Shown here piece after piece: positions 43,973-59,095 of a stretch of DNA of 64,000 nt (position 1 is the first letter of the stretch; each line of letters opens with the position of its first letter). The DNA is from Desulforamulus reducens MI-1 (GTDB taxonomy: Bacteria > Bacillota > Desulfotomaculia > Desulfotomaculales > Desulfotomaculaceae). Location: positions 1,832,332 through 1,896,331 of the forward strand of contig NC_009253.1 of the NCBI RefSeq assembly GCF_000016165.1. The letters are read 5' to 3'. The notes under the pieces are model-generated. The model ran no database searches and was not told the DNA's origin. It saw only the letters and a program-made list of their open reading frames with translations. A program made the translations under genes and the position numbers.

Positions 43973-44041
43973 ATGGCTGTATGGAAATGTCAAAAATGCG
44001 GTGCCACCAAGGAAGATTATGTAAAGGATGAGGCAAAGTAA
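43973..44041 (+). CDS. 22-residue microprotein with one CxxC knuckle
   Basis: The frame reads MAVWKCQKCGATKEDYVKDE plus two residues and a stop. It is preceded by AAAGGAGGTGG at seven bases, one of the strongest ribosome sites in the window. The start resembles rubredoxin-like RCKP-type proteins (MAVWKCxxCGATKE-), but those continue to a second CxxC, absent here. It could be an intact microprotein that dimerises around a metal, or the remnant of a longer gene. It lies between rpe and a bidirectional terminator. Confidence 0.6.
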   Translation: MAVWKCQKCGATKEDYVKDEAK

Positions 44042-44086
44042 TATATTTCACATGGCTGAAAAGATGGACCACGGTAGAAAAAACAA

Positions 44087-44110
44087 ACTGCCGGAAACCC
44101 GGCAGTCTTT
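44087..44110. terminator. Bidirectional terminator between microgene and the minus-strand gene
   Basis: ACTGCCGG-AAAC-CCGGCAGT with CTTT on the plus side. On the minus strand the same stem is followed by TTTGTTTTTT. It would end both the rpe-side transcript and the minus-strand gene at 44109-44348. Confidence 0.8.
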
Positions 44111-44348
44111 AATTTGTGTTTTTTTCAGTTTCATTTACCATTTCTGATACCAGACGGAGGGTAGATACTGTGTTGGTGAGAAGGATCTCATAAAGCATAA
44201 TGGGTAAAACATCTTGCAGGGTAGCTCCCAACTCCCCGGATTGAACCTTCTTAGCAACAATATCACCTGCTCTGTTTAAACTGTTATTAACCAAAGTAAT
44301 AATTTCTTCTTGGTGCTCTTGAACAAATTTGTCAACATCGACGGTCAT
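44109..44348 (-). CDS. Unrecognised small helical protein
   Basis: 79 residues, predicted mostly helical, no Cys and no membrane segment. N-terminus MTVDVDKFVQEHQEEIITLV; the middle has a hydrophobic LPIMLYEILLTNTVSTLRLV stretch. I do not recognise a family. GGAAAGG lies about eleven bases before the ATG and a terminator follows the stop. A dimeric helical bundle is plausible, but no function can be inferred. Confidence 0.6.
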   Translation of the reverse strand: MTVDVDKFVQEHQEEIITLVNNSLNRAGDIVAKKVQSGELGATLQDVLPIMLYEILLTNTVSTLRLVSEMVNETEKNTN

Positions 44349-44441
44349 CTATAAACACGCCTTTCCGAGTTTTAATTTATTATAACCTTAGAATTATAGT
44401 TTTCCAACATAAACATTTTTTGTATTAATTGTTAAACCATA

Positions 44442-45153
<712 letters not shown>

Positions 45154-45195
45154 TTAAGTTAAAAAACTCTCGCTTGGCGAGGGTTTTTAACTTAA
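45154..45195 (+). terminator. Terminator of adk
   Basis: TTAAGTTAAAAAACTCTCGC pairs with GCGAGGGTTTTTAACTTAA (one mismatch or bulge). The core is AAACTCTCGC / GCGAGGGTTT with a three-base loop. It begins directly after the adk stop. Confidence 0.88.
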
Positions 45196-45226
45196 CTAAG
45201 ATAGCCGTACTTTACCATAGACCCCA

Positions 45227-45256
45227 CACTCCAAAAGTCCTTTTGGGGTGTTTTTT
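45227..45256 (+). terminator. Second terminator downstream of adk
   Basis: CACTCCAAAA and TTTTGGGGTG form a ten-base-pair stem (one GT pair) with loop GTCC, then TTTTTT. With the previous hairpin it isolates the sigma-54 regulator gene from adk. Confidence 0.85.
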
Positions 45257-45345
45257 ATTCCTTCATTCTGTCAAGTAGTTGTACATTTTTAGCCTCGGAT
45301 TTATTAAAACATTCTATAAAATTGCAGGATTTTTTACTGACAGTG

Positions 45346-45375
45346 TTGAACTTATTTTAAACATTAAAATATAGA
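45346..45375 (+). promoter_or_regulatory. Possible promoter of the first sigma-54 activator gene
   Basis: TTGAAC (45346-45351), 18 bases, TATAGA (45370-45375). It would start transcription within a few bases of the GTG at 45384, so either the leader is extremely short or translation starts further downstream. Confidence 0.35.
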
Positions 45376-45383
45376 ACCTGGAT

Positions 45384-47144
45384 GTGATTTGGGCTATGGG
45401 GATACATCATAAATTCTATCCGAGAGCTATCGACATGTACAGTTTGCCTGTCCAGGAAATTGATGAAACAGTTTCTGTTTTGGAAGGACAGAGGTTACTG
45501 GAATCGGGTCTATTGGGTGGCTTATTATTACAAAAATCAGATCAATATTTTGTTATAATGCCATCGGATATCTTCTGTGCAGCGGAGACGGATAGTTTAA
45601 GCAAAAGAGCTTGGCGGCCGGCCTTGTTTATAACAGAAGATTGTACAATGACTGAATTGCTTAAACAGTGGGGAAAGGCTCCTACTGCAATACCGGTTGT
45701 CAATAATACATCCAATAAACCCATAGGGCTTTTGGAGCCATTATCTGTAGCTAATGAAATATATGCTGGGTTTGTCAAGTTGAGGTGCTTTTTTGAGACA
45801 GTATTAGATCAGGTAAATGAAAGTATATGTGGAATTGACAAATTGCACAGGGTTATGATCTGGAACCCCAAAGCAGAAGAGCTTTACAATGTTAAAGCTG
45901 AAAAAATCCTTTCCGGACGTATAGAAGATTTCTTTTCCAACTTGCGTATTAGTAACTGTATGCATGAGAAAAAAGAGGTTAGGGGTCTATATCACCAACC
46001 CTGCGAGGGTGCCCATGTATTAATTAACTCGGCACCTGTTTTTGACTCTGGGAAGGTTATTGGCGGCCTAGCAGTTGAAAAGGATATTACAGAAATTGTT
46101 CAATTAAATCAAGAGTTGAATAAAGCCAGTACTCAGGTCAAGCTTTTAGAACAGGAAATTAGAAAAATATCTGGGCAAGATTGTGCTTTTAATAAACTAA
46201 TTGGACGCAGTGAGGCAATACAGAAGCTAATTGTGTTTGGCAAAAAGATTAGTGTCACCGAAGCGACAGTCCTTCTTCGGGGTGAGAGTGGTACAGGTAA
46301 AGAATTACTGGCCAGGGCCATTCACCAGAATAGTCCTCGTCATATGAATCCTTTTATTGTAGTCAATTGCGGAGCGATTCCCAATAACCTTTTCGAAAGT
46401 GAACTCTTTGGTTACGAAGGGGGCGCCTTTACCGGAGCTGATCGTAAAGGCAAACCGGGCATGTTTGAGCTGGCTAACGGAGGAACATTGTTTTTAGATG
46501 AAGTTGGCGAAATGCCCATAGAAATGCAAGCAAAACTACTTAGGGTATTGCAAGAGGGGACATTCTATCGGGTTGGTGGATCACAATCAGTCCATGTAAA
46601 TGTAAGGGTTTTGGCTGCCACCCACCGTAATTTAGAGGATATGATCAATCGGCGCCAATTTAGAGAGGATTTGTATTATCGTCTTAATGTTGTTGCTTTG
46701 GAAATACCCCCACTAAGAGACCGTAGGGAGGACATACCAGAGCTGGTTCATTTATTTATGCAGGAATTCTGTCAAAAGTATGATAAAAATATTAAAAAGA
46801 TTGAGCCTGCGGTTATGACAGCTTTCCTTGATTATACATGGCCAGGAAACGTCCGGGAGCTAAAAAATGCCGTTGAAAGATTGGTTGTTTTAACAGATGG
46901 AGACATCATTGATGAAGCAGCATTACCCGAAAACTTGAGAAGAAATACCTATATATCTTTGGTGACAAGTCCCGTCTCCCAGGGCAAATTAATGAATGTC
47001 GCAGTGGAAGCTGAGAAACAACTTATATTAAAAACCTTACAACAAGTAAGGGGAAACCGTTCAGAAGCAGCCAGAGTCCTTGGTATACCAAGGAGCACTT
47101 TATATTACAAGCTAAGACAACTGGGAATTCCCGCAAAGGGTTAA
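45384..47144 (+). CDS. Sigma-54-dependent activator with PAS domain (EBP 1)
   Basis: 586 residues. N-terminal sensor region (about 1-135, weakly CBS-like), PAS domain (about 140-255) and coiled linker. The AAA+ domain has Walker A GESGTGKE near residue 301, the sigma-54 contact loop GAFTGAD near 351, and LFLDEVGE. A Fis-type HTH (GNRSEAARVLGIPRSTLYYK) lies at the end. It activates sigma-54 RNA polymerase from upstream sites. The GTG start is weak; Met codons at 45396 and 45438 are alternatives. It is a close paralogue of the protein at 51898 and sits just upstream of the amino-acid ABC transporter. Confidence 0.88.
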   Translation: MIWAMGIHHKFYPRAIDMYSLPVQEIDETVSVLEGQRLLESGLLGGLLLQKSDQYFVIMPSDIFCAAETDSLSKRAWRPALFITEDCTMTELLKQWGKAPTAIPVVNNTSNKPIGLLEPLSVANEIYAGFVKLRCFFETVLDQVNESICGIDKLHRVMIWNPKAEELYNVKAEKILSGRIEDFFSNLRISNCMHEKKEVRGLYHQPCEGAHVLINSAPVFDSGKVIGGLAVEKDITEIVQLNQELNKASTQVKLLEQEIRKISGQDCAFNKLIGRSEAIQKLIVFGKKISVTEATVLLRGESGTGKELLARAIHQNSPRHMNPFIVVNCGAIPNNLFESELFGYEGGAFTGADRKGKPGMFELANGGTLFLDEVGEMPIEMQAKLLRVLQEGTFYRVGGSQSVHVNVRVLAATHRNLEDMINRRQFREDLYYRLNVVALEIPPLRDRREDIPELVHLFMQEFCQKYDKNIKKIEPAVMTAFLDYTWPGNVRELKNAVERLVVLTDGDIIDEAALPENLRRNTYISLVTSPVSQGKLMNVAVEAEKQLILKTLQQVRGNRSEAARVLGIPRSTLYYKLRQLGIPAKG

Positions 47145-47148
47145 ACAA

Positions 47149-47180
47149 TACCTCATGGGTCGGGAGGTGAGATTTTTTTT
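47149..47180 (+). terminator. Weak terminator between EBP 1 and the ABC operon
   Basis: TACCTC (47149-47154) pairs with GAGGTG (47164-47169), and eight T residues follow at 47173-47180. The short stem suggests partial termination. Confidence 0.45.
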
Positions 47181-47223
47181 AGATAATTAACAAGTTAAAA
47201 ATATTGAACGGAGGACAATAGAG

Positions 47224-48414
47224 ATGAAAAAAAATAAGTTATGGAAGGTTATGTCTCTGATGTTAGTTCTTTCTTTTCTCTTGGTCGGTTGCGGTGGAGA
47301 AGAGAAAAAGACCACCGAAGGAGATAAGGGATCTTCCAACGGCGAAAGCATTAAAATTGGATTTTTAGGAGCAAAAAACGGTAATCATGCTGCATTTGGC
47401 ATTCCTACTTTGGAAGGTATGAAGATGGCAGCAGAGGATATTAATAAAGCCGGCGGGTTACTGGGCAAAAAGATTGAAATTATTGAAGAAGACCATGGCA
47501 GCAAAAATACCGAAGGTGCTAACGTAACTCAAAAGCTTATTACCCGTGATAAGGTTGTAGCCATTGTAGGTGATCCCACCACTGCCATTACAAAAATTGC
47601 TGCACCCATCGCACAAGAGAAAAAGGTTGTATTGCTTTCTGCTGGTGCTGTAGGAACCGGTGTTGTGGAAAATGGTGACTACATTTTCCGTGATACACTA
47701 CTGGATGCCGTGGCGGCTCCTGCTGTTACCAAATATGTAAAAGAAAATCTTGGTTGGAAAAAAGTTGCTGTCATCACTTCGATGAATAATGACTATAGTG
47801 TTGGACTATCAAAATTATTCAGAGCCGCTTTAGTTGATAATGGTATTGAAATTGTAGCAGAACAAAGCATTCAAGACGGAGATCAGAACTTCAGTGCCCA
47901 GGTTACTGCCATTAAGGAGAAGAATCCTGACGGAATTGTTTTTACAGGCTATTACACTGAGGGTGGACTGTTTATGAAAGAAGTTCGTAAACAAGGCATG
48001 AAGACTGTTATGGTTGGCGGCGACGGTCTGTTGGGTGATGTTCTGATGAAGATGGGTGGAGAAGCTGTTGAGGGCAGCATGATTTATTGCGGCTTTGCAG
48101 CCGACGAGAACAAAGCAGGGGAGAAAACAAAGAAGTTTATTGAAGCTTATAAAACAGGAAATAATGGTACGCTGCCTGATATGTTTGCAGCCCAGGGCTA
48201 CGATGCTGTCATGCTTATTGCAGATGCCATAAAAGCAGCTAATAGTGATGTACCAGAAAAATTCCGTGCAGAATTGGCCAAAACGAAGGATTGGACAGGT
48301 GTGTCGGGCATCATTACATTCCAAGAAAACCGCGAACCTATCAAAAGTCCGGTTTACCTTTTGGAAGTGAAAGGCGGAAAATTTACTGTAAAAGAAACAG
48401 TAGAAATAAAATAA
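47224..48414 (+). CDS. LIV-type ABC transporter substrate-binding lipoprotein
   Basis: 396 residues. Lipoprotein signal with lipobox LLVGC near residue 22, then a Glu/Lys-rich linker. The periplasmic-binding-protein type I fold follows (IKIGFLGAKNGNHAAFG, GMKMAAEDINKAGGLLGKKI), typical of LivJ/BraC. It captures an amino acid outside the membrane. The neighbouring permease and ATPase genes complete the importer. The adjacent proline-oxidation operon suggests proline or a related amino acid as ligand; branched-chain amino acids are the family default. Confidence 0.9.
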   Translation: MKKNKLWKVMSLMLVLSFLLVGCGGEEKKTTEGDKGSSNGESIKIGFLGAKNGNHAAFGIPTLEGMKMAAEDINKAGGLLGKKIEIIEEDHGSKNTEGANVTQKLITRDKVVAIVGDPTTAITKIAAPIAQEKKVVLLSAGAVGTGVVENGDYIFRDTLLDAVAAPAVTKYVKENLGWKKVAVITSMNNDYSVGLSKLFRAALVDNGIEIVAEQSIQDGDQNFSAQVTAIKEKNPDGIVFTGYYTEGGLFMKEVRKQGMKTVMVGGDGLLGDVLMKMGGEAVEGSMIYCGFAADENKAGEKTKKFIEAYKTGNNGTLPDMFAAQGYDAVMLIADAIKAANSDVPEKFRAELAKTKDWTGVSGIITFQENREPIKSPVYLLEVKGGKFTVKETVEIK

Positions 48415-48431
48415 TTTTTATGACATAAAAG

Positions 48432-48466
48432 TTTGCAGCCATTGCTGTATTAGTAATGGCTGCAAA
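48432..48466 (+). other. Intercistronic stem-loop between binding protein and permease genes
   Basis: TTTGCAGCCATT and AATGGCTGCAAA form a perfect 12-base-pair stem with an 11-base loop, and no long T run follows. It probably stabilises the binding-protein mRNA or causes partial termination, giving more binding protein than permease, as in other ABC operons. Confidence 0.7.
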
Positions 48467-48497
48467 TTGTTCATACCCCGCAGGAAGGAAGGGTTTT

Positions 48498-49370
48498 ATG
48501 CTTGGACAGCAGCTACTTAATGGAATAACATTAGGTGCAACCTATGCGTTAATCGCCCTAGGTTACACGATGGTTTACGGTATTATTCAGTTGATTAACT
48601 TTGCCCATGGAGAAATCTATATGGTTGGTGCTTTTGTAGGGGTGTTAATGGTTACTGTTTTTCAACAGGGGTTAGCTGCTTCGTTGGTTGCTGCTATGCT
48701 TACCTGTATGGTTATCGGTGTATCCATTGAACGCATTGCTTATCGTCCCCTCCGCAGGTCCACTCGGTTAGCTCCGCTAATTTCTGCCATTGGAGTTTCT
48801 ATTTTTCTACAGACATTAATGACAAAGCTCAAAGGTCCACAACCTGTAGGGTTTCCCCATGTAATTGAAGATGCCATTTATAAATTTGCTTCAATTGAAA
48901 TCAGCAAGGTACAGATTATTATCTTAGTATTATCCAGCCTACTTATGGCAGGACTACATTTTATTGTGAAGTATGTTAAGATTGGTAAAGCCATGCGAGC
49001 TGCTTCGGAAGATTATGATACGGCAGCGTTAATGGGTATAAATGTCAACAGAGTTATCTCATTTACCTTTGCTATTGGATCAGCTCTGGCTGCAGCGGGT
49101 GGGGTACTGGTAGGGATTTATTTTAACTCTGTATCGCCGCTAATGGGAGTAACGGTAGGTTTAAAGGCCTTCTGTGCTGCTGTCTTAGGGGGGATCGGAA
49201 GTATACCAGGGGCCATGTTGGGAGGTTTGTTTTTAGGTGTGGCGGAGACCCTGGGCGTAGCCGGCGGTTTTGATTTATATAAAGACGCCATTGCCTTTAC
49301 CCTGTTAATTGTAGTTTTACTTTTCCGGCCCACGGGGTTGCTAGGACGGCCAATTCAAAGGAAAGTGTAG
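48498..49370 (+). CDS. LIV-type ABC transporter permease (LivH-like)
   Basis: 290 residues with about eight membrane helices. Family motifs: LLNGITLGATYALIALGYTM at the N-terminus, INFAHGEIYM near residue 34, RAASEDYDTAALMGINVNRV (ATPase-coupling loop) near residue 165, and GGIGSIPGAMLGG. The ATG at 48498 follows AGGAAGGAAGGG. In-frame codons from 48456 overlap the stem-loop and are rejected. Confidence 0.93.
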   Translation: MLGQQLLNGITLGATYALIALGYTMVYGIIQLINFAHGEIYMVGAFVGVLMVTVFQQGLAASLVAAMLTCMVIGVSIERIAYRPLRRSTRLAPLISAIGVSIFLQTLMTKLKGPQPVGFPHVIEDAIYKFASIEISKVQIIILVLSSLLMAGLHFIVKYVKIGKAMRAASEDYDTAALMGINVNRVISFTFAIGSALAAAGGVLVGIYFNSVSPLMGVTVGLKAFCAAVLGGIGSIPGAMLGGLFLGVAETLGVAGGFDLYKDAIAFTLLIVVLLFRPTGLLGRPIQRKV

Positions 49371-49380
49371 GTAAATTGCC

Positions 49381-50283
49381 ATGGATAGTATTTTTAGCAT
49401 GTTTTTAAATGATTACTATATCCAGGTATTGACTATGCTGGGTATATATCTAATTGGTGCCCTAGGACTTAATTTAATAACTGGTGTAACTGGCCAACTA
49501 TCCTTTGGACATGCAGCCTTTTTAAGTATTGGGGCCTATACCTCAGCAATCTTTAGTGTGAAATTAGGAATGTCCTTCCCTGTTGCTATCATTGCTGGTG
49601 GTCTTATGTCTGGTTTTTGGGGTATATTACTGGGTTACCCTACCCTTCGGTTAACTGGTGACTATTTAGGTATTGCCACCTTAGGCTTTGGCGAAATTGT
49701 ACGAGTTGTTTTTCTTAACTTAAGTATCACTGGCGGCGCCCTGGGTATGGCAGGGATTCCCCGTAGCTCAAGTCTTACCGTGGTAATTTTAGTGGTTATT
49801 GTGACTGTCTGGGCTATGGTTCGATTAGAAAATTCTCGCTTTGGCCGATCGTTGTTAGCAATTCGGGAAGACGAAATTGCTGCCGAGGCCATGGGCGTTA
49901 ACATTACCACTTCAAAGATTACTGCCTTTGCCATAGGTACCTTCATTGCCGGAGTTAGCGGAGGATTATATGCCCACCTGCTAACCTATCTAAATCCATC
50001 GGATTTCGGTTTTCTAAAATCCTTTGAATTTTTAACCTTCGTTGTTTTGGGTGGGTTGGGAAGCATTCCTGGCGTTATTCTGGGCACTAGTATTTTGACA
50101 TTGGCACCTGAATTTCTACGTTTTATTGCTGACTATCGAATGATGGTTTATGGCTTACTGATGGTAGTAATGATGATTGTTCGCCCCAGAGGATTGCTGG
50201 GTGGTGTAAAAGTAAGCCGGATCTTAAATAAGAAATCTCTCCCAAAAAACAAAAACACATCTGCCACCGGCGGGGTCAACTAA
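49381..50283 (+). CDS. LIV-type ABC transporter permease (LivM-like)
   Basis: 300 residues with about nine membrane helices. It has GQLSFGHAAFLSIGAYTSA near residue 38, the coupling loop RSLLAIREDEIAAEAMGVN near residue 158 and GGLGSIPGVILGT near 224. It pairs with the LivH-like subunit to form the channel. A GTAGGT site precedes the ATG. Confidence 0.93.
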   Translation: MDSIFSMFLNDYYIQVLTMLGIYLIGALGLNLITGVTGQLSFGHAAFLSIGAYTSAIFSVKLGMSFPVAIIAGGLMSGFWGILLGYPTLRLTGDYLGIATLGFGEIVRVVFLNLSITGGALGMAGIPRSSSLTVVILVVIVTVWAMVRLENSRFGRSLLAIREDEIAAEAMGVNITTSKITAFAIGTFIAGVSGGLYAHLLTYLNPSDFGFLKSFEFLTFVVLGGLGSIPGVILGTSILTLAPEFLRFIADYRMMVYGLLMVVMMIVRPRGLLGGVKVSRILNKKSLPKNKNTSATGGVN

Positions 50284-50296
50284 TGGAGGCGAAGCA

Positions 50297-51067
50297 ATGT
50301 CAAAGGTAATTTTAGAATTAAACAGTGTGACCATCCGATTTGGCGGGCTTACTGCCGTTGACAATGTTAACATGAAAATAGAGCAGGGGACCATTCGGGC
50401 CCTTATCGGACCCAATGGAGCTGGAAAAAGTACAATATTCAATCTGATTACAGGCATCTATCCGCCATCCGCAGGGGAAATCTCTTTTTTAGGTGCTAGG
50501 ATCAGTGATCTAAAGCCCCATGCTATTACAGAAATGGGTATCGCCAGAACCTTCCAAAACATACGTTTATTTGATGAAATGACGGTATTGGATAATGTCA
50601 AAATAGGTCAGCACTGTCGAACTAAAACCGGTTTTCTTGGATCCATAATAAGGGGACCCAGCGTAAAGGCGGAGGAAAAGGCCATTACGGAGGCTTCTAT
50701 GGAGGCCCTAAAGTTAATGGAACTGGAACATAAAGCAGATGAATTGGCTATGAATTTACCCTATGGAGAACAGCGCCGACTAGAAATAGCTCGAGCACTG
50801 GCCACAAATCCAAAGCTTATTCTGCTTGATGAGCCTGCTGCTGGTATGAACCCACAGGAAAAAATGACACTTGTAGCTATGATACGAAAAATCCAAAGCA
50901 GGGGGCTAACTATTTTCTTGGTTGAGCACGATATGAAATTTGTTATGAATTTATCCGATCGCATCGCGGTTCTGGATTATGGCAGAAAAATTGCTGCGGG
51001 ATCTCCGGCGGAAATTCAGCGGGACCCAGCGGTTATTGCTGCTTATTTGGGAAAGGAAGTGGTATAG
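50297..51067 (+). CDS. LIV-type ABC transporter ATPase (LivG-like)
   Basis: 256 residues. Walker A GPNGAGKSTIFN near residue 38, signature region LPYGEQRRLEIARAL near 155, Walker B LILLDEPAAGMNP near 175. The GIARTFQNIRLF segment is typical of LivG. It drives the importer in the cytoplasm. GGAGGCG precedes the ATG. Confidence 0.93.
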   Translation: MSKVILELNSVTIRFGGLTAVDNVNMKIEQGTIRALIGPNGAGKSTIFNLITGIYPPSAGEISFLGARISDLKPHAITEMGIARTFQNIRLFDEMTVLDNVKIGQHCRTKTGFLGSIIRGPSVKAEEKAITEASMEALKLMELEHKADELAMNLPYGEQRRLEIARALATNPKLILLDEPAAGMNPQEKMTLVAMIRKIQSRGLTIFLVEHDMKFVMNLSDRIAVLDYGRKIAAGSPAEIQRDPAVIAAYLGKEVV

Positions 51068-51070
51068 CCC

Positions 51071-51778
51071 ATGCTGCTAGAAGTTAATGACCTACATGTT
51101 TCCTATGGGGCTATTCGTGCACTGAAAGGTGTTTCTTGTCAAGTGGGCGAAGGTGAAATTGTAGCGTTAATTGGTGCCAATGGTGCGGGGAAAACTACAA
51201 CCCTGCGCACCATTTCAGGTTTGATTCGGCCTCAGTCAGGTTCCATTACATATAAGGGAATTGCTATTACAAAAATGCCTCCTCATGAAATTGTTGGTCT
51301 GGGTCTGTGTCAAGTGCCGGAAGGAAGACGGGTTTTCACCAGAATGACAGTCATGGAAAATTTAGAGATGGGAGCGTATATACGAAAGGATAAGTCCAGC
51401 GTTAAAGAGGATATAAAAAAGGTATTTCAACGGTTTCCTCGTTTGGAAGAGCGCAAGGATCAATTATCGGGAACCCTTTCCGGTGGTGAACAACAGATGC
51501 TGGCAATGGGTCGAGCATTGATGTCTCGGCCTAATGTTTTGTTAATGGATGAACCTTCCATGGGATTAGCCCCTATGCTTGTTCAAGAAATATTTGCTAT
51601 AATAAAAGAAATCAATGAAACTGGGACAACAATTCTGTTGGTTGAGCAAAATGCTCATATGGCGTTATCCATTGCCCATAGGGCCTATGTGCTGGAAACC
51701 GGGGAGGTTGTTCTGGTGGGTCCTGCCAAAGATTTAGCTAATAACCCAGAGGTTCAAAAGGCTTATTTGGGTGAATAA
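51071..51778 (+). CDS. LIV-type ABC transporter ATPase (LivF-like)
   Basis: 235 residues. Walker A GANGAGKTTTLR near residue 36, CQVPEGRRVFTRMTVMENL (LivF signature), LSGGEQQMLAMGRAL near 138, Walker B LLMDEPSMGLAP near 158. It starts three bases after the LivG-like gene and ends the transporter operon. Confidence 0.93.
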   Translation: MLLEVNDLHVSYGAIRALKGVSCQVGEGEIVALIGANGAGKTTTLRTISGLIRPQSGSITYKGIAITKMPPHEIVGLGLCQVPEGRRVFTRMTVMENLEMGAYIRKDKSSVKEDIKKVFQRFPRLEERKDQLSGTLSGGEQQMLAMGRALMSRPNVLLMDEPSMGLAPMLVQEIFAIIKEINETGTTILLVEQNAHMALSIAHRAYVLETGEVVLVGPAKDLANNPEVQKAYLGE

Positions 51779-51787
51779 AACGGAAAA

Positions 51788-51817
51788 CTAAAAGTAGGAA
51801 ACTCTCCTACTTTTTAG
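51788..51817 (+). terminator. Terminator of the amino-acid ABC operon
   Basis: CTAAAAGTAGGA and TCCTACTTTTTAG form a stem of about 12 base pairs with loop AACTC and an internal T run. It lies ten bases after the last transporter gene. Confidence 0.9.
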
Positions 51818-51820
51818 CGT

Positions 51821-51836
51821 GTATACCACTGTATAC
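51821..51836. promoter_or_regulatory. Double GTATAC palindrome upstream of EBP 2
   Basis: GTATAC-CACT-GTATAC, itself an inverted repeat, lies 60 bases before the start of the second sigma-54 activator gene, directly after the terminator. It could be an operator for that gene. Confidence 0.35.
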
Positions 51837-51897
51837 AATATTATAAAAACAGGTAGAGTTATAAACTTTCTGATAGTGATATGACTGGGGTGATTAA

Positions 51898-53625
51898 ATG
51901 CATAAAGGTTTTTTAACTGTAAAAGAGATGTTGTATAAGGATCTTCTATCGGTTACTCCAGAAGAAACCATAGGTAAAGTTAGGGAAAAGGGTGTTCCGA
52001 ACCGTCCTGTTGTGCTGGCAATGGATGGTGATCGTTTAGTGGGAGTAATGCTTTGGAAGGATGTTATTAATCGTAAGCTCGAATCAGATGTGCTAGTGAA
52101 CCAAGTGATGAGAAGGGATTTTTCTTCTCTGGATGAAGAAGACCTTGAGAGGGAAATCTTGGCCTTTTTACCGGAACTTCGCTACCATGCCCTTGTTTGC
52201 CGAAATAATCAGGGAGATATATTAGGGGTTCTATCCTATGATCAGGTATTTCATGATCTTGCTTTACGAGTTTGTGAAACCGAAGCAAGGATTAATGCGG
52301 TTGTGGAAACTGTAGACGAAGCTGTATGTATTGTTGATAATAATGATATGGTTACCAGCTGGAACAGCCGTGCTGAAGAACTATATGGAATAAAAGCACA
52401 GGATATCATTGGCAAACCGATTTGTAGCTTTTTTACCAACCTGGTGGTAACCAGAGTGAATAAAGAGTGGCAGGAAATACGATCTCTACACCATCAACCT
52501 GTACCGGGTACCCACGTTTTAATAAATGCTACTCCTGTACGATTAGGACCTAAAGTGATAGGTGGTGTAACCGCTGAAAGGGATGTTACTGAGATAGTAC
52601 AACTGAATCAAAAATTAAACCAGGCCAGTTCTCAAGTGCAGCGTCTGGAAAAGGAAATTGATAAATTTTCTACCGACCGAAATCCCTTTGCTGCTGTCAA
52701 GGGTCACCATAAAAGATTGACAGAATTAATCAATGTTGCCAGAAAGGCAGCCTTAACCAGTGCTGTTGTGCTATTACGTGGGGAAAGCGGTACAGGCAAG
52801 GAATTGTTTGCTAAGGCAATTCATGAAGCAAGTCCCCGTATAGACAAAAAGTTTTGTGTTATCAATTGCGCCGCAATTCCCCCCAGTCTTTTTGAAAGTG
52901 AAATGTTCGGTTATGAGAGTGGTGCCTTCACAGGTGCCGATAAAAAAGGGAAAATAGGTGTGTTTGAAATGGCAGATGGCGGCACTTTGTTTCTAGATGA
53001 AATAAGTGAATTGCCGCTGGATATGCAAGTTAAGTTGCTCAGAGTTCTGCAAGATGGTGTATTCTTTAGAATTGGCGGTTCAACTCCCATAAAAGTAGAT
53101 GTAAGAATTATAGCTGCCACCAACCGTTCCTTGGAGGATATGATGGCCCATGGAACCTTCCGGGAAGACCTTTATTACCGTTTGAATGTCGTATCCTTGG
53201 AAATCCCACCCTTGCGCGAGAGAAGAGAAGACATTCCGGAACTGGTATACTTATTCTTACAAGAATTCAGTCAACTTTATAATAAGCAGATTTCCAAATT
53301 GGAGCCAGGTGTCATGGCTACCTTCTTGGCTTACTCATGGCCCGGAAATATTAGGCAGCTAAAGAATATCATCGAACGAATGGTTATCCTAACAGAGGGT
53401 GACACAGTTCTTGAAAGTGCCATTCCTGAATCATTAAAGCTGAGTTCCAGACAGGACCAAGCCACTGCTACCATAGGGTTGGCCTCAGTCACTGAACAAA
53501 CAGAACGGGAACTTATCATACGAACCCTAAAGCAGGTCAATGGCAATCGATCAGAAGCTGCCCGTATGCTGGGTATTCCTAGAAGTACACTATATTATAA
53601 AATGCATCAACTGGGAATTATGTAA
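51898..53625 (+). CDS. Sigma-54-dependent activator with CBS-like and PAS domains (EBP 2)
   Basis: 575 residues. A CBS-pair-like N-terminus (about 1-125: FLTVKEMLYKDLLSVTPEET, VNQVMRRDFSSL) is followed by a PAS domain (about 135-245). The AAA+ domain has GESGTGKE near residue 297, the sigma-54 loop GAFTGAD near 344, and a C-terminal Fis-type HTH (GNRSEAARMLGIPRSTLYYK). ATG after GGGGTGA. Immediately upstream of the oxidoreductase operon with its sigma-54 promoter, so it is the likely direct activator. The signal, possibly proline, is unknown. Confidence 0.9.
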   Translation: MHKGFLTVKEMLYKDLLSVTPEETIGKVREKGVPNRPVVLAMDGDRLVGVMLWKDVINRKLESDVLVNQVMRRDFSSLDEEDLEREILAFLPELRYHALVCRNNQGDILGVLSYDQVFHDLALRVCETEARINAVVETVDEAVCIVDNNDMVTSWNSRAEELYGIKAQDIIGKPICSFFTNLVVTRVNKEWQEIRSLHHQPVPGTHVLINATPVRLGPKVIGGVTAERDVTEIVQLNQKLNQASSQVQRLEKEIDKFSTDRNPFAAVKGHHKRLTELINVARKAALTSAVVLLRGESGTGKELFAKAIHEASPRIDKKFCVINCAAIPPSLFESEMFGYESGAFTGADKKGKIGVFEMADGGTLFLDEISELPLDMQVKLLRVLQDGVFFRIGGSTPIKVDVRIIAATNRSLEDMMAHGTFREDLYYRLNVVSLEIPPLRERREDIPELVYLFLQEFSQLYNKQISKLEPGVMATFLAYSWPGNIRQLKNIIERMVILTEGDTVLESAIPESLKLSSRQDQATATIGLASVTEQTERELIIRTLKQVNGNRSEAARMLGIPRSTLYYKMHQLGIM

Positions 53626-53631
53626 GAGTCT

Positions 53632-53662
53632 TGTCTAGACATAACTGTCATAAAGACTGACA
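53632..53662. promoter_or_regulatory. Candidate activator-binding palindromes (UAS)
   Basis: TGTCTAGACA (53632-53641) is a perfect palindrome. TGTCA-TAAAGAC-TGACA (53646-53662) follows with the same TGTC/GACA half-sites. They lie about 170-200 bases upstream of the -24 element, a normal distance for enhancer-binding proteins. Inference only. Confidence 0.4.
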
Positions 53663-53697
53663 CTTGTGCAGAAAATCATACTGTATTTATGATGATT

Positions 53698-53735
53698 ATC
53701 AAGAAAAACACGCATTGTTGCGTGTTTTTCTTGAT
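53698..53735 (+). terminator. Terminator of EBP 2
   Basis: ATCAAGAAAAACACG and CGTGTTTTTCTTGAT form a perfect 15-base-pair stem with loop CATTGTTG; the right arm contains TTTTT. It separates the regulator transcript from the sigma-54 promoter downstream. Confidence 0.9.
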
Positions 53736-53832
53736 TTTAAAACTTTTTAAATATTCTATATACTGACGAATGACTGATTTACCTTATGACTGGAGCAACA
53801 ACCTGTACACTCTGGGTGGAAATATGTCCTTA

Positions 53833-53850
53833 TTGGCACAATAATTGCTT
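53833..53850 (+). promoter_or_regulatory. Sigma-54 (-24/-12) promoter of the proline-oxidation operon
   Basis: TTGGCACAATAATTGCTT matches the sigma-54 consensus TGGCAC-N5-TTGC, with the invariant GG (53835-53836) and GC (53847-53848) exactly ten bases apart. The start codon of the first gene is 30 bases further on. No other site this good was found near the ABC operon. Confidence 0.85.
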
Positions 53851-53877
53851 TTTATATAACCAAGGAGGTATTGACCC

Positions 53878-54183
53878 ATGAGAATTGAAAAGCACCCCAT
53901 ACTAGAATTTAAATCCAGCAGCAAAATCAAATTTACTTATAATGGAAATGAATTGGAAGGTTACGAAGGTGAGACAATTGCTGCTGCCCTCCATGCTGCA
54001 GGTGTTCGAATTATGCGGGAAAGTGGACATTTACATCGTCCCAGGGGTTTGTTTTGTAATATTGGTAACTGCTCTTCCTGTTTGATGGTTGTTAACGGCG
54101 AACCCAATGTTCGGGTATGTGTAGAAAGGTTACGGGAGGGGATGGTCGTGGAGACCCAGAAGGGGAAGGGTGAGCTAAAGTGA
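53878..54183 (+). CDS. 2Fe-2S subunit of amino-acid dehydrogenase complex
   Basis: 101 residues, beta-grasp ferredoxin. FTYNGNELEGYEGETIAAAL is followed by four Cys in LFCNIGNCSSCLMVV and NVRVCVE. This corresponds to the N-terminal domain of sarcosine oxidase alpha, HcnA or dye-linked proline dehydrogenase small subunits. It would transfer electrons from the flavin subunits. AAGGAGGT precedes the ATG; its 3' end overlaps the next gene by four bases. First gene behind the sigma-54 promoter. Confidence 0.88.
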   Translation: MRIEKHPILEFKSSSKIKFTYNGNELEGYEGETIAAALHAAGVRIMRESGHLHRPRGLFCNIGNCSSCLMVVNGEPNVRVCVERLREGMVVETQKGKGELK

Positions 54184-55259
54184 AATACACCGAAGTAGCC
54201 ATTGTAGGTGGGGGACCCGCTGGTTTAACTGCTGCAATGAGTGCCGCTAAGTTAGGTGCGGAGGTTATCTTAATTGATCGAAATGATTATTTAGGGGGCC
54301 AACTGATAAAACAAACACACCGTTTTTTTGGTTCTAAACAACAGAGGGCATCGGAACGGGGTATTGACATTGCACGGGAGTTAAGTGACCAGGTTATGAA
54401 TATCCCGAATATACAGGTTATGACTGAAGCCACTGTACTGGGTTATTACGAAGACGGTGTATTACTGGTTGAGCAAAATAAAAAAATCATTACAATTCAT
54501 CCCAAAAGAATCGTTATTTCCACTGGCGGGGCAGAAAAGACATTGTTGTTTCCCAATAATGATTTGCCGGGTGTTTACGGTGCGGGGGCAGTCCAAACCC
54601 TTGTTAATGTTTACGGTGTAAAACCAGGCAAAAAAGTCCTGATGGTAGGTGCAGGGAATATTGGCGTCATTGTAAGCTATCAATTACTTCAGGCAGGCAT
54701 AGAGGTAGTTGCTATTATAGAAGCAGCACCTAAGATTGGTGCTTATTGGGTTCATGCTGCGAAAGTCGTCAGGGCCGGTGTCCCCATTTTGACCCGGCAT
54801 ACTATCGTCAAGGCCCATGGAGAAAGGGAAGTTAATGGTGCCACTGTGGTACGATTGGACGAAAACTGGCAGCCCATAACGGGCACCCAAAAGAAACTGG
54901 ATGTTGATGTTATCTGCTTATCCGTAGGGCTAACACCCCTGTCGGAATTGCTATGGCAAGCGGGCTGTAAAATGGTCTATGTTCCTGAATTAGGTGGCAA
55001 TGTGCCCCTGCGGAATGAACATCTAGAAACCTCAGTACCTGGTATCTACGTAGCCGGCGATGTTGCAGGGATTGAAGAGGCCTCTGCAGCTATGATGGAG
55101 GGATCCTTAGCAGGTTTAGAGGCAGCTGCCAGCCTTGGCTATACCAGTGAAACATTGCAAGAAAATCTAAGGGATGTATTAGAACAATTAAAGGGTTTAC
55201 GATCAGGTTCTGTGGGAGAAAAGATACGCAAAGGGATGGAACAAGTCAGTCTAGGGTAA
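54180..55259 (+). CDS. FAD/NAD(P)-type oxidoreductase subunit (HcnB / PDH alpha-like)
   Basis: 359 residues. FAD-binding VAIVGGGPAGLTAAMSAAKL at the N-terminus, with LGGQLIKQTHRFFG. A second Rossmann motif, VLMVGAGNIGVIV, is near residue 155, and a closing YVAGDVAGIEEAS near residue 290. No redox-active CxxC, so it is not a thioredoxin reductase. Relatives carry a C-terminal BFD domain; here that part is a separate gene at 55896. Role: electron-transfer or NAD-linked flavin subunit of the complex. Confidence 0.87.
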   Translation: MKYTEVAIVGGGPAGLTAAMSAAKLGAEVILIDRNDYLGGQLIKQTHRFFGSKQQRASERGIDIARELSDQVMNIPNIQVMTEATVLGYYEDGVLLVEQNKKIITIHPKRIVISTGGAEKTLLFPNNDLPGVYGAGAVQTLVNVYGVKPGKKVLMVGAGNIGVIVSYQLLQAGIEVVAIIEAAPKIGAYWVHAAKVVRAGVPILTRHTIVKAHGEREVNGATVVRLDENWQPITGTQKKLDVDVICLSVGLTPLSELLWQAGCKMVYVPELGGNVPLRNEHLETSVPGIYVAGDVAGIEEASAAMMEGSLAGLEAAASLGYTSETLQENLRDVLEQLKGLRSGSVGEKIRKGMEQVSLG

Positions 55260-55263
55260 TCAG

Positions 55264-55370
55264 AATGATTTCCTAAATCAAGGAAAACACTTTGCGATAT
55301 GCACAAGGGCAACCAAGGCTGGGGTGCCCCTCGGAAGATAGTGCCAGCCCAAGCTTTCCCAAGGAGCTGA
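55264..55370. repeat. Structured intergenic repeat, copy B, inside the operon
   Basis: It fills the 141-base gap between the FAD and 4Fe-4S subunit genes. It has the hairpin TTTCCT..AGGAAA, the core AAGGGCAACCAAGGCT (55305-55320) and closing CCAGCCCAAGCTTTC. GTGCCCCTCGGAAGATAGTGCCAGCC aligns with copies A and C, so at least three copies exist in 64 kb. It would be transcribed within the operon mRNA. Confidence 0.65.
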
Positions 55371-55400
55371 TAAATAATTGATTGCTAGGAGTGATATCCC

Positions 55401-55895
55401 ATGTTGCCACAAGACGGTATTGTAAGACCGGAAGATGTGGCCTCTGTTTTACCCCCGGAGGAACGTCTGGCCCAAGGTCCGGTGGCCATTGCCGAGTGCT
55501 TTCAAAACATTCCCTGTGACCCCTGCTATCACAACTGTAAGCAGGGAGCAATTCAAGAGTTTAAAGAAATAAACGATCGCCCCCAAATTATATTTGACAA
55601 ATGCAACGGTTGCGGTACCTGCATGAGTCGCTGTCCAGGCCTTGCCATATTTGTAGTGGACGCTACTTTTTCCGACTCAGAGGCTATAGTCAAGATTCCC
55701 TATGAATTTTTGCCGATTCCGGATGTCAATGAAACCGTCACAGCTATTAACAGAGCCGGTCAGGCAGTGGGAGAGGCAAGGGTCGTACGTGTTCAAAACA
55801 CTAAGGTTCAGGACCGAACTGTCATTGTATGGTTAGCTGTACCCAAAGAATTAATGCTGGAAGTACGGCATTTCAAAGTCAGGGGGGTGCAGTAA
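55401..55895 (+). CDS. 4Fe-4S ferredoxin-type subunit
   Basis: 164 residues. Two cluster motifs: ECFQNIPCDPCYHNCKQGAI near residue 35 and CNGCGTCMSRCPGLAI near residue 73. About 80 further residues form an unassigned C-terminal domain. It would carry electrons between the flavin subunits and an external acceptor. GCTAGGAGTG precedes the ATG. It sits between the FAD subunit and BFD-type genes, as in multi-subunit proline or hydroxyproline dehydrogenases. Confidence 0.85.
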   Translation: MLPQDGIVRPEDVASVLPPEERLAQGPVAIAECFQNIPCDPCYHNCKQGAIQEFKEINDRPQIIFDKCNGCGTCMSRCPGLAIFVVDATFSDSEAIVKIPYEFLPIPDVNETVTAINRAGQAVGEARVVRVQNTKVQDRTVIVWLAVPKELMLEVRHFKVRGVQ

Positions 55896-56195
55896 ATGAG
55901 TCAAAAGGATGAAAATGACGTTACCATCCTCTGTCGCTGTGAAGATATAACCATTGAAGAAGTACGTTCTTATATTCAACGGGGAATCACCGATTTAGAA
56001 CAATTGAAGAGGTTATTAAGGGTAGGTATGGGTCCCTGCCAGGGCAGAACCTGTACTCCCTTATTAGTAAATGAATTGGCCAGAGCTACCGGGCAGGAAA
56101 TAAAAAGGATTCACCTGACGGTATTCCGTCAACCAACTACCCCTGTAAAGCTGGGGGTTCTGGCAGGAGGTACCGATCATGAAGAAAACAGCTGA
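55896..56195 (+). CDS. BFD-type 2Fe-2S subunit
   Basis: 99 residues. The bacterioferritin-ferredoxin-like domain is seen in CRCEDITIEEV (near 14) and VGMGPCQGRTC (near 44), giving four Cys for one [2Fe-2S] cluster. In many homologous dehydrogenases it is fused to the FAD subunit; here it is a free gene. It starts immediately after the 4Fe-4S gene stop and overlaps the next gene by 17 bases. Confidence 0.87.
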   Translation: MSQKDENDVTILCRCEDITIEEVRSYIQRGITDLEQLKRLLRVGMGPCQGRTCTPLLVNELARATGQEIKRIHLTVFRQPTTPVKLGVLAGGTDHEENS

Positions 56196-57327
56196 TTATG
56201 TTGTCATTGGGGGTGGCGTGATTGGTTGTTCCATTGCCTATCATTTAGCCCAAAAGGGCGCTAAAAACATTGCATTAATCGAAAAAAAATATCTTACCAG
56301 CGGTGCCACCGGTCGTTGTGGTGCAGGAGTAAGGATGCAATTTGGTACTGAAACAAACTGTTTGCTTGCAAAACACAGTGTAGAACTCTTTGAAAATTTG
56401 GAAGAAGAGCTGAGTTATGACGGTAGTATTGAGTTCAAGCAGGGTGGCTATTTGTTGCTAGCCTATACCGAAAAAATGGTTGAACAATTTCATAAAAATT
56501 TGGGCATACAGCATCAACTTGGTATACCATCCAGTTGGGTAACTCCGGAGGAGGCAAAGGAAATTGTCCCCTATTTAAATACCCAGGGATTGTTGGGTGC
56601 TACTTTCTGCCCAAAGGACGGTCATTGTAATCCCTTTAAAACCACCGATGCCTATGCCAAAGCTGCCCAGAAGCTGGGAGTAGAGATTATGACCTACACC
56701 GAAGTTACTGAATTGTTAGCCCAGGAAGGCCGGATAAAAGGGGTTAGAACCAGGGAAGGCATTATTGAAACGCCTGTGGTCATTCTATGTGCCGGGTCCT
56801 ACTCTCGGGATTTAGCAGCAACCATCGGCATAGAATTACCAATTACCCCTGAACGACACCAGATTCTTGTGACTGAACCAGTGGAAAAGATGCAGGAACC
56901 GATGGTCATGAGTTTTTATCATGGACTTTACTGTCAGCAGGTTCCCCATGGTGGCTTTGTGATGGGTCTTGGTGACCCCAATGAGCCCAAGGAATACAAT
57001 TATAACGGTAGTTGGCAATTTCTTCATGAAATGGCAGCTAAGGCCACCTTTATATTGCCTCCATTGGCCAATTTAAGGGTGGTACGTCAATGGGCAGGTC
57101 TATATGACTTAACTCCCGATCGTCAACAAATCTTGGGCAGTGTTCCCGGTTGTGAAGGATTCCATCTTGCCGCAGGCTTCTCTGGTCATGGATTTATGAT
57201 TGCGCCCATGACAGGCAAATTAATGGCAGAACACATTCTAGGAGAACCCACCAGCTTACCCATTCAAATGTTTGATTTCAGCCGCTTCGAGCGTGGGGAC
57301 CTATTTATTGAACCTTCGGTGGTATAG
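56179..57327 (+). CDS. DAO-family FAD-dependent amino-acid dehydrogenase (proline dehydrogenase beta-like)
   Basis: 382 residues. FAD motif VIGGGVIGCSIAYHLAQKG at the N-terminus, SGATGRCGAGVR near residue 43, and the C-terminal AAGFSGHGFMIAPMTGKLMAE typical of DadA, sarcosine oxidase beta and archaeal dye-linked L-proline dehydrogenase beta subunits. It is the probable catalytic subunit oxidising a secondary amino acid. The P5C dehydrogenase gene next to it favours proline or hydroxyproline. Glycine, sarcosine or opines cannot be excluded. It overlaps the BFD gene. Confidence 0.87.
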   Translation: MKKTADYVVIGGGVIGCSIAYHLAQKGAKNIALIEKKYLTSGATGRCGAGVRMQFGTETNCLLAKHSVELFENLEEELSYDGSIEFKQGGYLLLAYTEKMVEQFHKNLGIQHQLGIPSSWVTPEEAKEIVPYLNTQGLLGATFCPKDGHCNPFKTTDAYAKAAQKLGVEIMTYTEVTELLAQEGRIKGVRTREGIIETPVVILCAGSYSRDLAATIGIELPITPERHQILVTEPVEKMQEPMVMSFYHGLYCQQVPHGGFVMGLGDPNEPKEYNYNGSWQFLHEMAAKATFILPPLANLRVVRQWAGLYDLTPDRQQILGSVPGCEGFHLAAGFSGHGFMIAPMTGKLMAEHILGEPTSLPIQMFDFSRFERGDLFIEPSVV

Positions 57328-57373
57328 TCCCACAGAAAGTTAAGATAAAAAATGAATTTTTAAGGAGGATTCC

Positions 57374-58918
57374 ATGAAAAACTTTAGCAACGAACCCTTT
57401 ACAAATTTTGCTTTGGCAGAAAATGCTGCTGCCATTAAGTCCGCCCTAGCACAGGTCCGGCAGGAATTAGGGAAAAAATATCCCCTGTATATTGGGGGGG
57501 AAACCATATATACAGATGAAGTAATTATATCCACAAACCCAGCCGATGAAAATGAAGTTATTGGCAATGTATCCAAGGCGAACTTGGAATTAGCTGATAA
57601 GGCCATAGATACTGCTTTTCAAACCTTTAATAACTGGTCTAAGGTAGAACCCGGGGAACGGGCTATGTATCTATTTAAAGCGGCTGAACTCATGAGACAA
57701 AGAAAACATTATTTTTCTGCCTGGTTAGTTTTAGAAGCCGGTAAAAACTGGGCAGAGGCAGACGCAGACACAGCAGAGGCCATTGATTTTATGAACTACT
57801 ATGCCAATGAAATGTTGCGCTATGCTAATCCCCCCCAACTGGTTACGGTCAATGGGGAGTATAACAAAATGAAATATATCCCACTGGGTGTAGGAGTTGT
57901 CATTCCCCCTTGGAACTTTCCGCTGGCAATTATGGCCGGGATGACAGTGGCATCGGTGGTAACCGGTAATACGGTTGTTCTTAAACCGGCCAGTGCCACA
58001 CCGGTCATTGCAGCAAAATTCATGGAACTTCTTAGGGAGGTAGGACTGCCCGACGGCGTAGTTAACTACCTGCCAGGTTCTGGTGGCGCCATTGGCGATT
58101 ATTTAGTATCTCATAAACTAACCCGTTTTATCAATTTTACCGGTTCTAAGGAAGTGGGCTTGCGGATCAGTGAACTGGCGGCCAAAGTGTCTCCGGGTCA
58201 AAAATGGATTAAGCGAGTGGCTGCTGAAATGGGTGGGAAGGATTCCATCATTGTAGATGAAACTGCAGATCTGGATAAAGCAGCCCAGGGGATTGTTGCC
58301 TCTGCCTTTGGTTTTCAAGGTCAAAAGTGTTCTGCTTGTTCAAGGGCCATTGTGGTAGAAAGGGTTTATGATGAAGTGATAGAAAAAGTTCTGACCCTAA
58401 TGCCAAAACTGACTCAGGGTTCCCCTGAAGAAAATTTCCCCATGGGACCTGTCATTGAGAAAAGAGCCATGGAGAAAATTTTGGAATATATCGAAATAGG
58501 AAAACAGGAAGCTTCCCTGATATTGGGCGGGGAAAGATTAGGTGAAAAGGGTTGGTTTGTTAAACCCACCATCTTTAAAGACGTACCTCCAACGGCTAGA
58601 ATTTCTCTGGAAGAAATATTTGGACCCGTTCTGGCATTTATTAAAGTAAAGGATTTTGATGAAGCCTTGCAAGTTGTTAATAATACGGAATATGGCTTAA
58701 CTGGATCTTTATACACTAGAAACAGAGAAAATATTCGCCGGGCCAAGGAAGAATTCAATGTTGGAAACCTGTATTTTAATCGGAAATGCACCGGAGCCCT
58801 GGTGGGCGTACATCCCTTTGGCGGATTTAATATGTCCGGCACATGCTCCAAGGCAGGCGGTATTGATTATCTAGGATTATTTATGCAGATGAAAATAACT
58901 TCAGAGGTTTTAGGCTAA
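57374..58918 (+). CDS. rocA: L-glutamate gamma-semialdehyde (P5C) dehydrogenase
   Basis: 514 residues, RocA/PruA length. NAD-dependent ALDH with PPWNFPLAIMAGM near residue 177, general base Glu in AAEMGGKDS near 288, and nucleophile Cys in GFQGQKCSACSRA near 322. HPFGGFNMSGTCSKAGG near the C-terminus is typical of P5CDH. It converts glutamate semialdehyde to glutamate. AAGGAGG precedes the ATG. Its place as last gene of the operon is the main evidence that the upstream dehydrogenase makes P5C. Confidence 0.92.
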   Translation: MKNFSNEPFTNFALAENAAAIKSALAQVRQELGKKYPLYIGGETIYTDEVIISTNPADENEVIGNVSKANLELADKAIDTAFQTFNNWSKVEPGERAMYLFKAAELMRQRKHYFSAWLVLEAGKNWAEADADTAEAIDFMNYYANEMLRYANPPQLVTVNGEYNKMKYIPLGVGVVIPPWNFPLAIMAGMTVASVVTGNTVVLKPASATPVIAAKFMELLREVGLPDGVVNYLPGSGGAIGDYLVSHKLTRFINFTGSKEVGLRISELAAKVSPGQKWIKRVAAEMGGKDSIIVDETADLDKAAQGIVASAFGFQGQKCSACSRAIVVERVYDEVIEKVLTLMPKLTQGSPEENFPMGPVIEKRAMEKILEYIEIGKQEASLILGGERLGEKGWFVKPTIFKDVPPTARISLEEIFGPVLAFIKVKDFDEALQVVNNTEYGLTGSLYTRNRENIRRAKEEFNVGNLYFNRKCTGALVGVHPFGGFNMSGTCSKAGGIDYLGLFMQMKITSEVLG

Positions 58919-58944
58919 GATATTTACCATCCATTACTTTCATT

Positions 58945-58973
58945 CCATAGTCTCTATGAGACTATGGTTTTTT
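58945..58973 (+). terminator. Terminator of the proline-oxidation operon
   Basis: CCATAGTCTC and GAGACTATGG form a perfect ten-base-pair stem with a TAT loop, followed by six T residues. Confidence 0.93.
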
Positions 58974-58993
58974 GTTTAAGTGGTCAAACTAAT

Positions 58994-59095
58994 CATACTA
59001 GGCCCATCAGGGTGTGCCTGCCTGTGCTTTCAGAGTGCGGAAAGACTCTCGTGCCCTTTAGTATGGTGGAGCCAGGTTTACTTTAGAAGATACAC
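58994..59095. repeat. Structured intergenic repeat, copy C
   Basis: CATACTA (58994-59000) pairs with TAGTATG (about 59060-59066), enclosing AGAGT..ACTCT. CTCTCGTGCCCT (59046-59057) is identical to copy A, followed by the shared TAG..TATGG..GAGCCAGGTTTACTTT. It lies between the rocA terminator and the gerA-like gene and forms the 5' leader region of the germination operon. Confidence 0.6.

Follow-up and report, generated by a model that had tools for sequence, protein, structure and literature searches.

A likely PrdR-like, sigma-54-dependent system for the control of oxidative proline catabolism in Desulforamulus reducens

In C. difficile, PrdR activates the prd genes in response to proline from promoters TTGGCATAGGAATTGCTTA and TTGGCATAGAAATTGCTTT (PMC7438776), and its upstream activating sequences (UAS) follow the pattern TGT-N10-12-ACA (PMC6615313). 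The PrdR lineage has so far been described for proline reduction in Clostridia, and our literature search found no text with both PrdR and proline dehydrogenase. Here we analyzed a 64,000-base stretch of D. reducens MI-1 DNA (the window; positions are counted from its first base), in which a relative of PrdR is encoded next to an operon for an oxidative pathway. We consider it likely that this PrdR-like protein is a proline-responsive enhancer-binding protein that activates oxidative proline catabolism, which would extend the lineage to proline oxidation. The two related activator genes and the transporter genes between them are as follows.

45384-47144, plus strand: PrdR-like activator paralogue with nearly the same HTH recognition helix (NCBIfam, tree)
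47224-51778, plus strand: LIV-type amino acid ABC transporter (binding protein, two permeases and two ATPases), a conserved neighbour
51898-53625, plus strand: PrdR-like sigma-54 activator (enhancer-binding protein, EBP) of 575 amino acids (Pfam, NCBIfam, tree, structure)

The 51898 protein consists of an N-terminal CBS pair, a PAS domain, an AAA+ sigma-54 interaction domain and a Fis-type HTH (IPRSTLYYKM). Pfam recognized the sigma-54 interaction, Fis HTH and PAS domains, with CBS borderline, and the predicted structure of the N-terminus (pLDDT about 90 for residues 10-120) matched CBS pairs in the PDB. Its best NCBIfam model was PrdR (NF041552), at 597 bits, with the next model at 343. The alignment was full length (residues 5-571 on model positions 5-575) and covered the entire CBS-PAS-AAA+-HTH architecture. 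In a maximum-likelihood tree, the 51898 and 45384 proteins grouped with orthologues from Negativicutes in one clade (support 100/99), sister to the prd-linked PrdR proteins (95/93); the tree included some of the other activators of this genome, which fell apart from the PrdR-like clade. Since the protein matches PrdR over its full length and occupies the sister position, yet scores below the equivalog cut-off of 795 bits, we classify it as PrdR-like and not as PrdR. Its neighbours are genes for a dehydrogenase complex and a P5C dehydrogenase rather than prd genes. The initial annotation had described the activator's signal as undescribed, which is probably wrong: PrdR is the nearest family, the prd-linked proteins form the sister clade, and the target operon appears to serve proline oxidation, all of which points to proline, or one of its close derivatives, as the probable signal. 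Some 60 bases ahead of the 51898 gene is a TGT-N12-ACA dyad, TGTATACCACTGTATACA (51820-51837), which is kept only in part in relatives; autoregulation through it is possible.

The operon downstream of the activator gene encodes six proteins.

53878-54183, plus strand: [2Fe-2S] subunit (Fer2_4; profile match)
54180-55259, plus strand: FAD/pyridine-nucleotide oxidoreductase subunit (profile match)
55401-55895, plus strand: 4Fe-4S ferredoxin-like subunit (profile match)
55896-56195, plus strand: BFD-like [2Fe-2S] subunit (profile match)
56179-57327, plus strand: DAO-family subunit (best solved relative 1y56_B, E 2.9e-94)
57374-58918, plus strand: L-glutamate gamma-semialdehyde (P5C) dehydrogenase (TIGR01237, 764.9 bits; cut-off 659.65)

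The DAO-family subunit, present in a single copy in the genome, scored 320 bits against 1y56_B and 173 against the beta subunit of sarcosine oxidase. The PDB labels the 1y56_B chain as a sarcosine oxidase; we take 1y56 to be the L-proline dehydrogenase complex of Pyrococcus horikoshii. The natural reading of these matches is that the operon makes an Fe-S/FAD complex of the L-proline dehydrogenase type together with P5C dehydrogenase, which would convert proline to P5C and then to glutamate, the substrate being deduced from the gene families. The same wiring might instead answer another signal, with operon and activator serving hydroxyproline, an opine or another cyclic imino acid, as the operon's subunits are similar to those of a broad family that includes sarcosine oxidase, glycine oxidase and opine dehydrogenases (PMC4575208). 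We regard this as unlikely: the operon contains a P5C dehydrogenase, the nearest solved relative of its catalytic subunit is an L-proline dehydrogenase, and neither a classical proline dehydrogenase (PF01619) or other proline dehydrogenase in the genome nor a racemase or epimerase in the operon was found.

Between the activator gene and the operon we distinguish five elements.

53632-53641, no strand: TGTCTAGACA, a possible weak third half-site (TGTNCAAACA or absent in relatives)
53646-53662, no strand: UAS A, TGTCATAAAGACTGACA, TGT-N11-ACA, the main predicted enhancer dyad (matrix rank, conservation)
53664-53683, no strand: UAS B, TTGTGCAGAAAATCATACTG, a degenerate TTGTACA-N6-TGTACAA (consensus kept in relatives)
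53698-53735, plus strand: predicted intrinsic terminator of the activator gene, with a 17-bp stem, a 4-nt loop and a T-rich 3' arm (folding)
53833-53849, plus strand: predicted sigma-54 promoter, -24/-12 element TTGGCACAATAATTGCT (exact match, conservation)

The promoter sequence TTGGCACAATAATTGCTT (53833-53850) has GG at 53835-53836 and GC at 53847-53848, separated by 10 bases and set in a TGGCAY/TTGC context, which confirms the perfect GG-N10-GC spacing reported in the initial annotation. The pattern TTGGCACNNNNNTTGCW had no other perfect match in the window and only six, this site included, in the 3,608,104-base genome. With up to one mismatch allowed, 65 sites were found genome-wide as opposed to 21 for the reversed control, an approximately threefold enrichment. 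The genome encodes the sigma-54 factor itself (rpoN; PF04552, E 4.0e-63) and about 17 sigma-54 activators. When the gap between activator and operon was aligned across the family, GGCA(C/T)-N5-TTGC occupied the same place in 10 of 10 genomes, and the mean pairwise identity of the -24/-12 block was 0.73; in some relatives the -24/-12 pattern also matches ribosome-binding sites, and the sites there were read by eye. We predict from these matches that the promoter is real and expect the operon transcript to start near 53860.

The two UAS dyads are centred at 53654 (A) and 53673.5 (B), about 19.5 bp or nearly two helical turns apart. The centre of UAS A lies ~194 bp ahead of the -12 GC, a usual distance for an enhancer. 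The initial annotation had placed two activator sites with one and the same half-site, TGTCTAGACA and TGTCA-N7-TGACA, 170-200 bases upstream, and had proposed their conservation in related genomes as a check. Both palindromes do lie there, 171-201 bases from the -24/-12 element, and the second one, our UAS A, is kept in relatives. The first palindrome is not supported as an equal site, being weak and not kept as such: TGTNCAAACA stands in its place in six of nine relatives and three have no counterpart, its sequence varies with no dyad in register, and the mean pairwise identity is 0.46.

On their own counts, the palindromes could be chance occurrences or part of an RNA structure near the terminator, with the sigma-54 promoter activated from other sites. 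With two mismatches at most, the two patterns were found 23 and 32 times in the window, compared with 19.5 and 25.7 in shuffled sequence. Neither palindrome is therefore significant alone, and comparative support is needed. A UAS A matrix built from seven sites outside the window ranked 53646-53662 first in the 64 kb, and a UAS B matrix built from nine relatives ranked 53664-53683 second. In the family alignment, the mean pairwise identity was 0.52 for UAS A and 0.67 for UAS B, as opposed to 0.38 for the promoter-proximal spacer. A half-site model trained solely on sites from distant classes placed the 53646 site second in the window; because shuffled sequence reaches an equal score about 0.7 times in every 64 kb (roughly 0.003 per 250-base gap), it is position and conservation that carry the case for UAS A. 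When the UAS stretch was folded, nothing beyond shuffled sequences was seen (z -0.22), so the stretch more likely acts as DNA. Given also the recurrence of the dyads in other families and classes, described below, we consider chance or RNA structure very unlikely. The upstream dyads are conserved together with their cognate activator, and by this evidence UAS A is predicted to be a real, conserved enhancer and UAS B a second enhancer dyad. The latter was absent from the initial annotation, as its copy in the window is degenerate.

The form of UAS A is not rigid. Its spacing varies between N10 and N11 in the family, and in three close relatives (L031-L033) the dyad form is lost and UAS B alone is intact. 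The strict pattern TGTNNNAAANACTGACA had three perfect matches in the genome, namely the 53646 site and two sites at a LIV operon, and genus-wide it occurred in only one other genome, away from a 53878-type operon. Because both spacing and centre drift, the strict search is less informative than positional alignment. On the minus strand at 780100, 132 bp upstream of a -24/-12 element, a sequence close to UAS A was rejected as a further target: a different dyad, TGTTCGAAATTA...TAATTTCGGAACA, is present there, and the locus yielded no PrdR-like gene. At L061 5969-6150 (minus strand), a -24/-12 element with this dyad precedes the gene of a 132-amino-acid protein of unknown family; we regard it as a separate sigma-54 system that has no activator gene beside it.

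We next consider how far the arrangement extends. Orthologues of the 51898 protein (about 78-90% identity) were present in 10 of 10 family genomes, in each of which orthologue and paralogue are about 6.4 kb apart with the LIV transporter between them. In other families of the order, UAS A precedes the operon as TGTTTAAAAAACTGACA, TGTTCAAAAAACTGACG or TGTACAAAAAACTGACG (L040, L045 and L046, respectively); a recognisable -24/-12 element was not found in L045 and L046. A genome scan with the N-terminal domain matched Desulforamulus and related genera and, beyond these, Sporomusa acidovorans and three MAGs, one each from Sporomusaceae, Negativicutes and another Bacillota lineage. All four of these distant genomes have the activator, dyads (TGTCGAAAAACTGACG, TGTCAAAAAGTTGACG) 19-20 bp apart, a -24/-12 element and the same operon, and three of the four have a clear terminator between dyads and promoter. 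The order activator, sites, terminator, promoter, operon thus recurs across classes. In Schnuerera sp., TGTCGAATTATTGACA lies about 130 bp upstream of the -24/-12 element of prdC, beside a prd-linked PrdR. Because such dyads recur both beside the orthologues and at Schnuerera prdC, the half-site TGTC(A/G)AA appears to go with the PrdR-like activator clade. In L058, the UAS motif occurs twice within GCGTCGGAATACTGACA-catg-TGTCAGTATTCCGACGC, a perfect inverted repeat of 17-18 bp directly 3' of the activator gene.

This distribution bears on whether TGTCATAAAGACTGACA is a nitrogen box of the GlnR/TnrA type, through which nitrogen supply would repress or modulate the operon with no relation to the activator. 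The GlnR/TnrA consensus is TGTNAN7TNACA, 17 bp long, and 53646-53662 fits it exactly; moreover, the operon would yield glutamate. The fit is lost in relatives, which have TGTCAGAAAAACCGACA, TGTTTAAAAACACGACA or 16-bp forms, whereas the TGTC half-sites and the A-rich centre persist from class to class, and always next to an activator of this type. A location about 190 bp ahead of the -24/-12 element also suits an enhancer. We therefore hold a nitrogen box to be very improbable.

The paralogue 45384 might bind the sites instead of the 51898 protein, or the two might act as partners, with 51898 sensing proline and 45384 providing a second input. The proteins belong to one clade, have the helix IPRSTLYYK in common and are invariably found as a pair in the genus, and TGTCAAN(5)TTGTACA-like sites precede both the paralogue gene and a second LIV operon. 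In the Negativicutes and several order-level genomes, however, the UAS are retained although the search found no such activator other than the orthologue adjoining the operon, which makes a role of the paralogue at these sites quite improbable. A sigma-54 promoter with upstream sites for the adjacent 51898 activator, as initially proposed, is the best reading of the region.

The hairpin at 53698-53735 is stable (-24.6 kcal/mol, z -8.35), and an ACGT-type hairpin with a T tract is kept in nearly all 10 family genomes; the 97-base spacer on its 3' side drifts. A terminator had been noted between palindromes and promoter with a 15-bp stem; its placement holds, and the stem is 17 bp long with a 4-nt loop. 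No RNA element above the gathering score was found when positions 44000-59000 were scanned with Rfam. Because the terminator stands between enhancers and promoter, the operon should depend on the sigma-54 promoter.

From these elements, their conservation and the families of activator and operon, all read from sequence, we infer binding, the proline signal, looping and the start site. Dimers of the 51898 protein would bind UAS A and UAS B, in the 3' untranslated part of their own gene. On detection of proline or a close derivative by the sensory domains, the AAA+ ring would form, nucleated by the dimers at A and B, and the DNA would loop over about 190 bp. ATP hydrolysis would then open the sigma-54 RNA polymerase waiting at 53833-53849, and the terminator would end the activator transcript before the operon. 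Since the enhancers lie within the transcribed 3' region of the activator gene, transcription through the sites might, less probably, add feedback.

The paralogue and LIV genes (45384-47144 and 47224-51778), which the initial annotation did not cover, have related sites upstream. Ahead of 45384, TGTCAAGTAGTTGTACA (45269-45285) is followed by a SigH-like promoter, GCAGGATTTTTT...TGTTGAAC (~45324-45353), and this site and promoter (GCAGGAATTTT...TGTGGAATT in relatives) occur in nearly all family genomes. The second LIV operon is located at 2.45 Mb in this genome and directly upstream of the paralogous activator in relatives. Sites of the TGTCAATTAGTTGTACA type are conserved upstream of both the paralogue gene and this operon; a -24/-12 element was not found upstream of either, and their AGGAATTT-N-GTGGAATATT promoters resemble those used by SigH. 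UAS A-like sites at L060 6063-6079 (minus strand) and 6206-6222 (plus strand) lie on either side of the second LIV operon's SigH-like promoter; they account for two of the three exact occurrences of the UAS A pattern in the genome and are conserved in the genus. An almost invariant TTTTCGTAGAAATTTTTAATCAA is found just 3' of this promoter, ~90-110 bases before the livJ start (L067-L074). The genus-wide flanking of SigH-like promoters by TGTCA..TTGTACA sites suggests a small proline regulon, in which the 51898 protein or its paralogue would also act on promoters that do not use sigma-54 and catabolism would be joined to SigH-driven uptake; we find this doubtful. The LIV transporter at 47224-51778 is possibly a proline importer.

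The proposed system is a modest extension of a known regulator lineage and no surprise. For sulfate-reducing Firmicutes and Sporomusa-type bacteria, it would specify a concrete site, protein and signal through which oxidative proline catabolism is controlled. Its dyads resemble NtrC/NifA-type enhancers (TGT-N10-ACA for NifA) in lying ~100-200 bp upstream of -24/-12 and about two turns apart, but half-site and activator subfamily differ. The P. horikoshii 1y56 complex likewise combines a catalytic subunit of the DAO family and an FAD/Fe-S partner subunit; it is archaeal, has no sigma-54 control and is divided into subunits in another way, the 53878 operon encoding separate 2Fe-2S, BFD and 4Fe-4S proteins. 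The B. thuringiensis sarcosine oxidase cluster with its regulator SoxR (HD73_3141), likened here by its published description, also combines a PAS-type sigma-54 activator, sarcosine-oxidase-like subunits and an aldehyde dehydrogenase; unlike the 53878 operon, it has proline-racemase-type and dihydrodipicolinate-synthase-like genes (PMC4428206). The closest counterpart is C. difficile PrdR at the prdA and prdC promoters, which shares the CBS-PAS-AAA+-HTH activator, TGT/ACA dyads as UAS, the TTGGCAY-N5-TTGC promoter and proline-linked targets. The 51898 protein falls in a sister clade and not inside PrdR (597 bits versus the 795 cut-off), and its predicted targets are a dehydrogenase complex and P5C dehydrogenase, whereas PrdR targets proline reductase.
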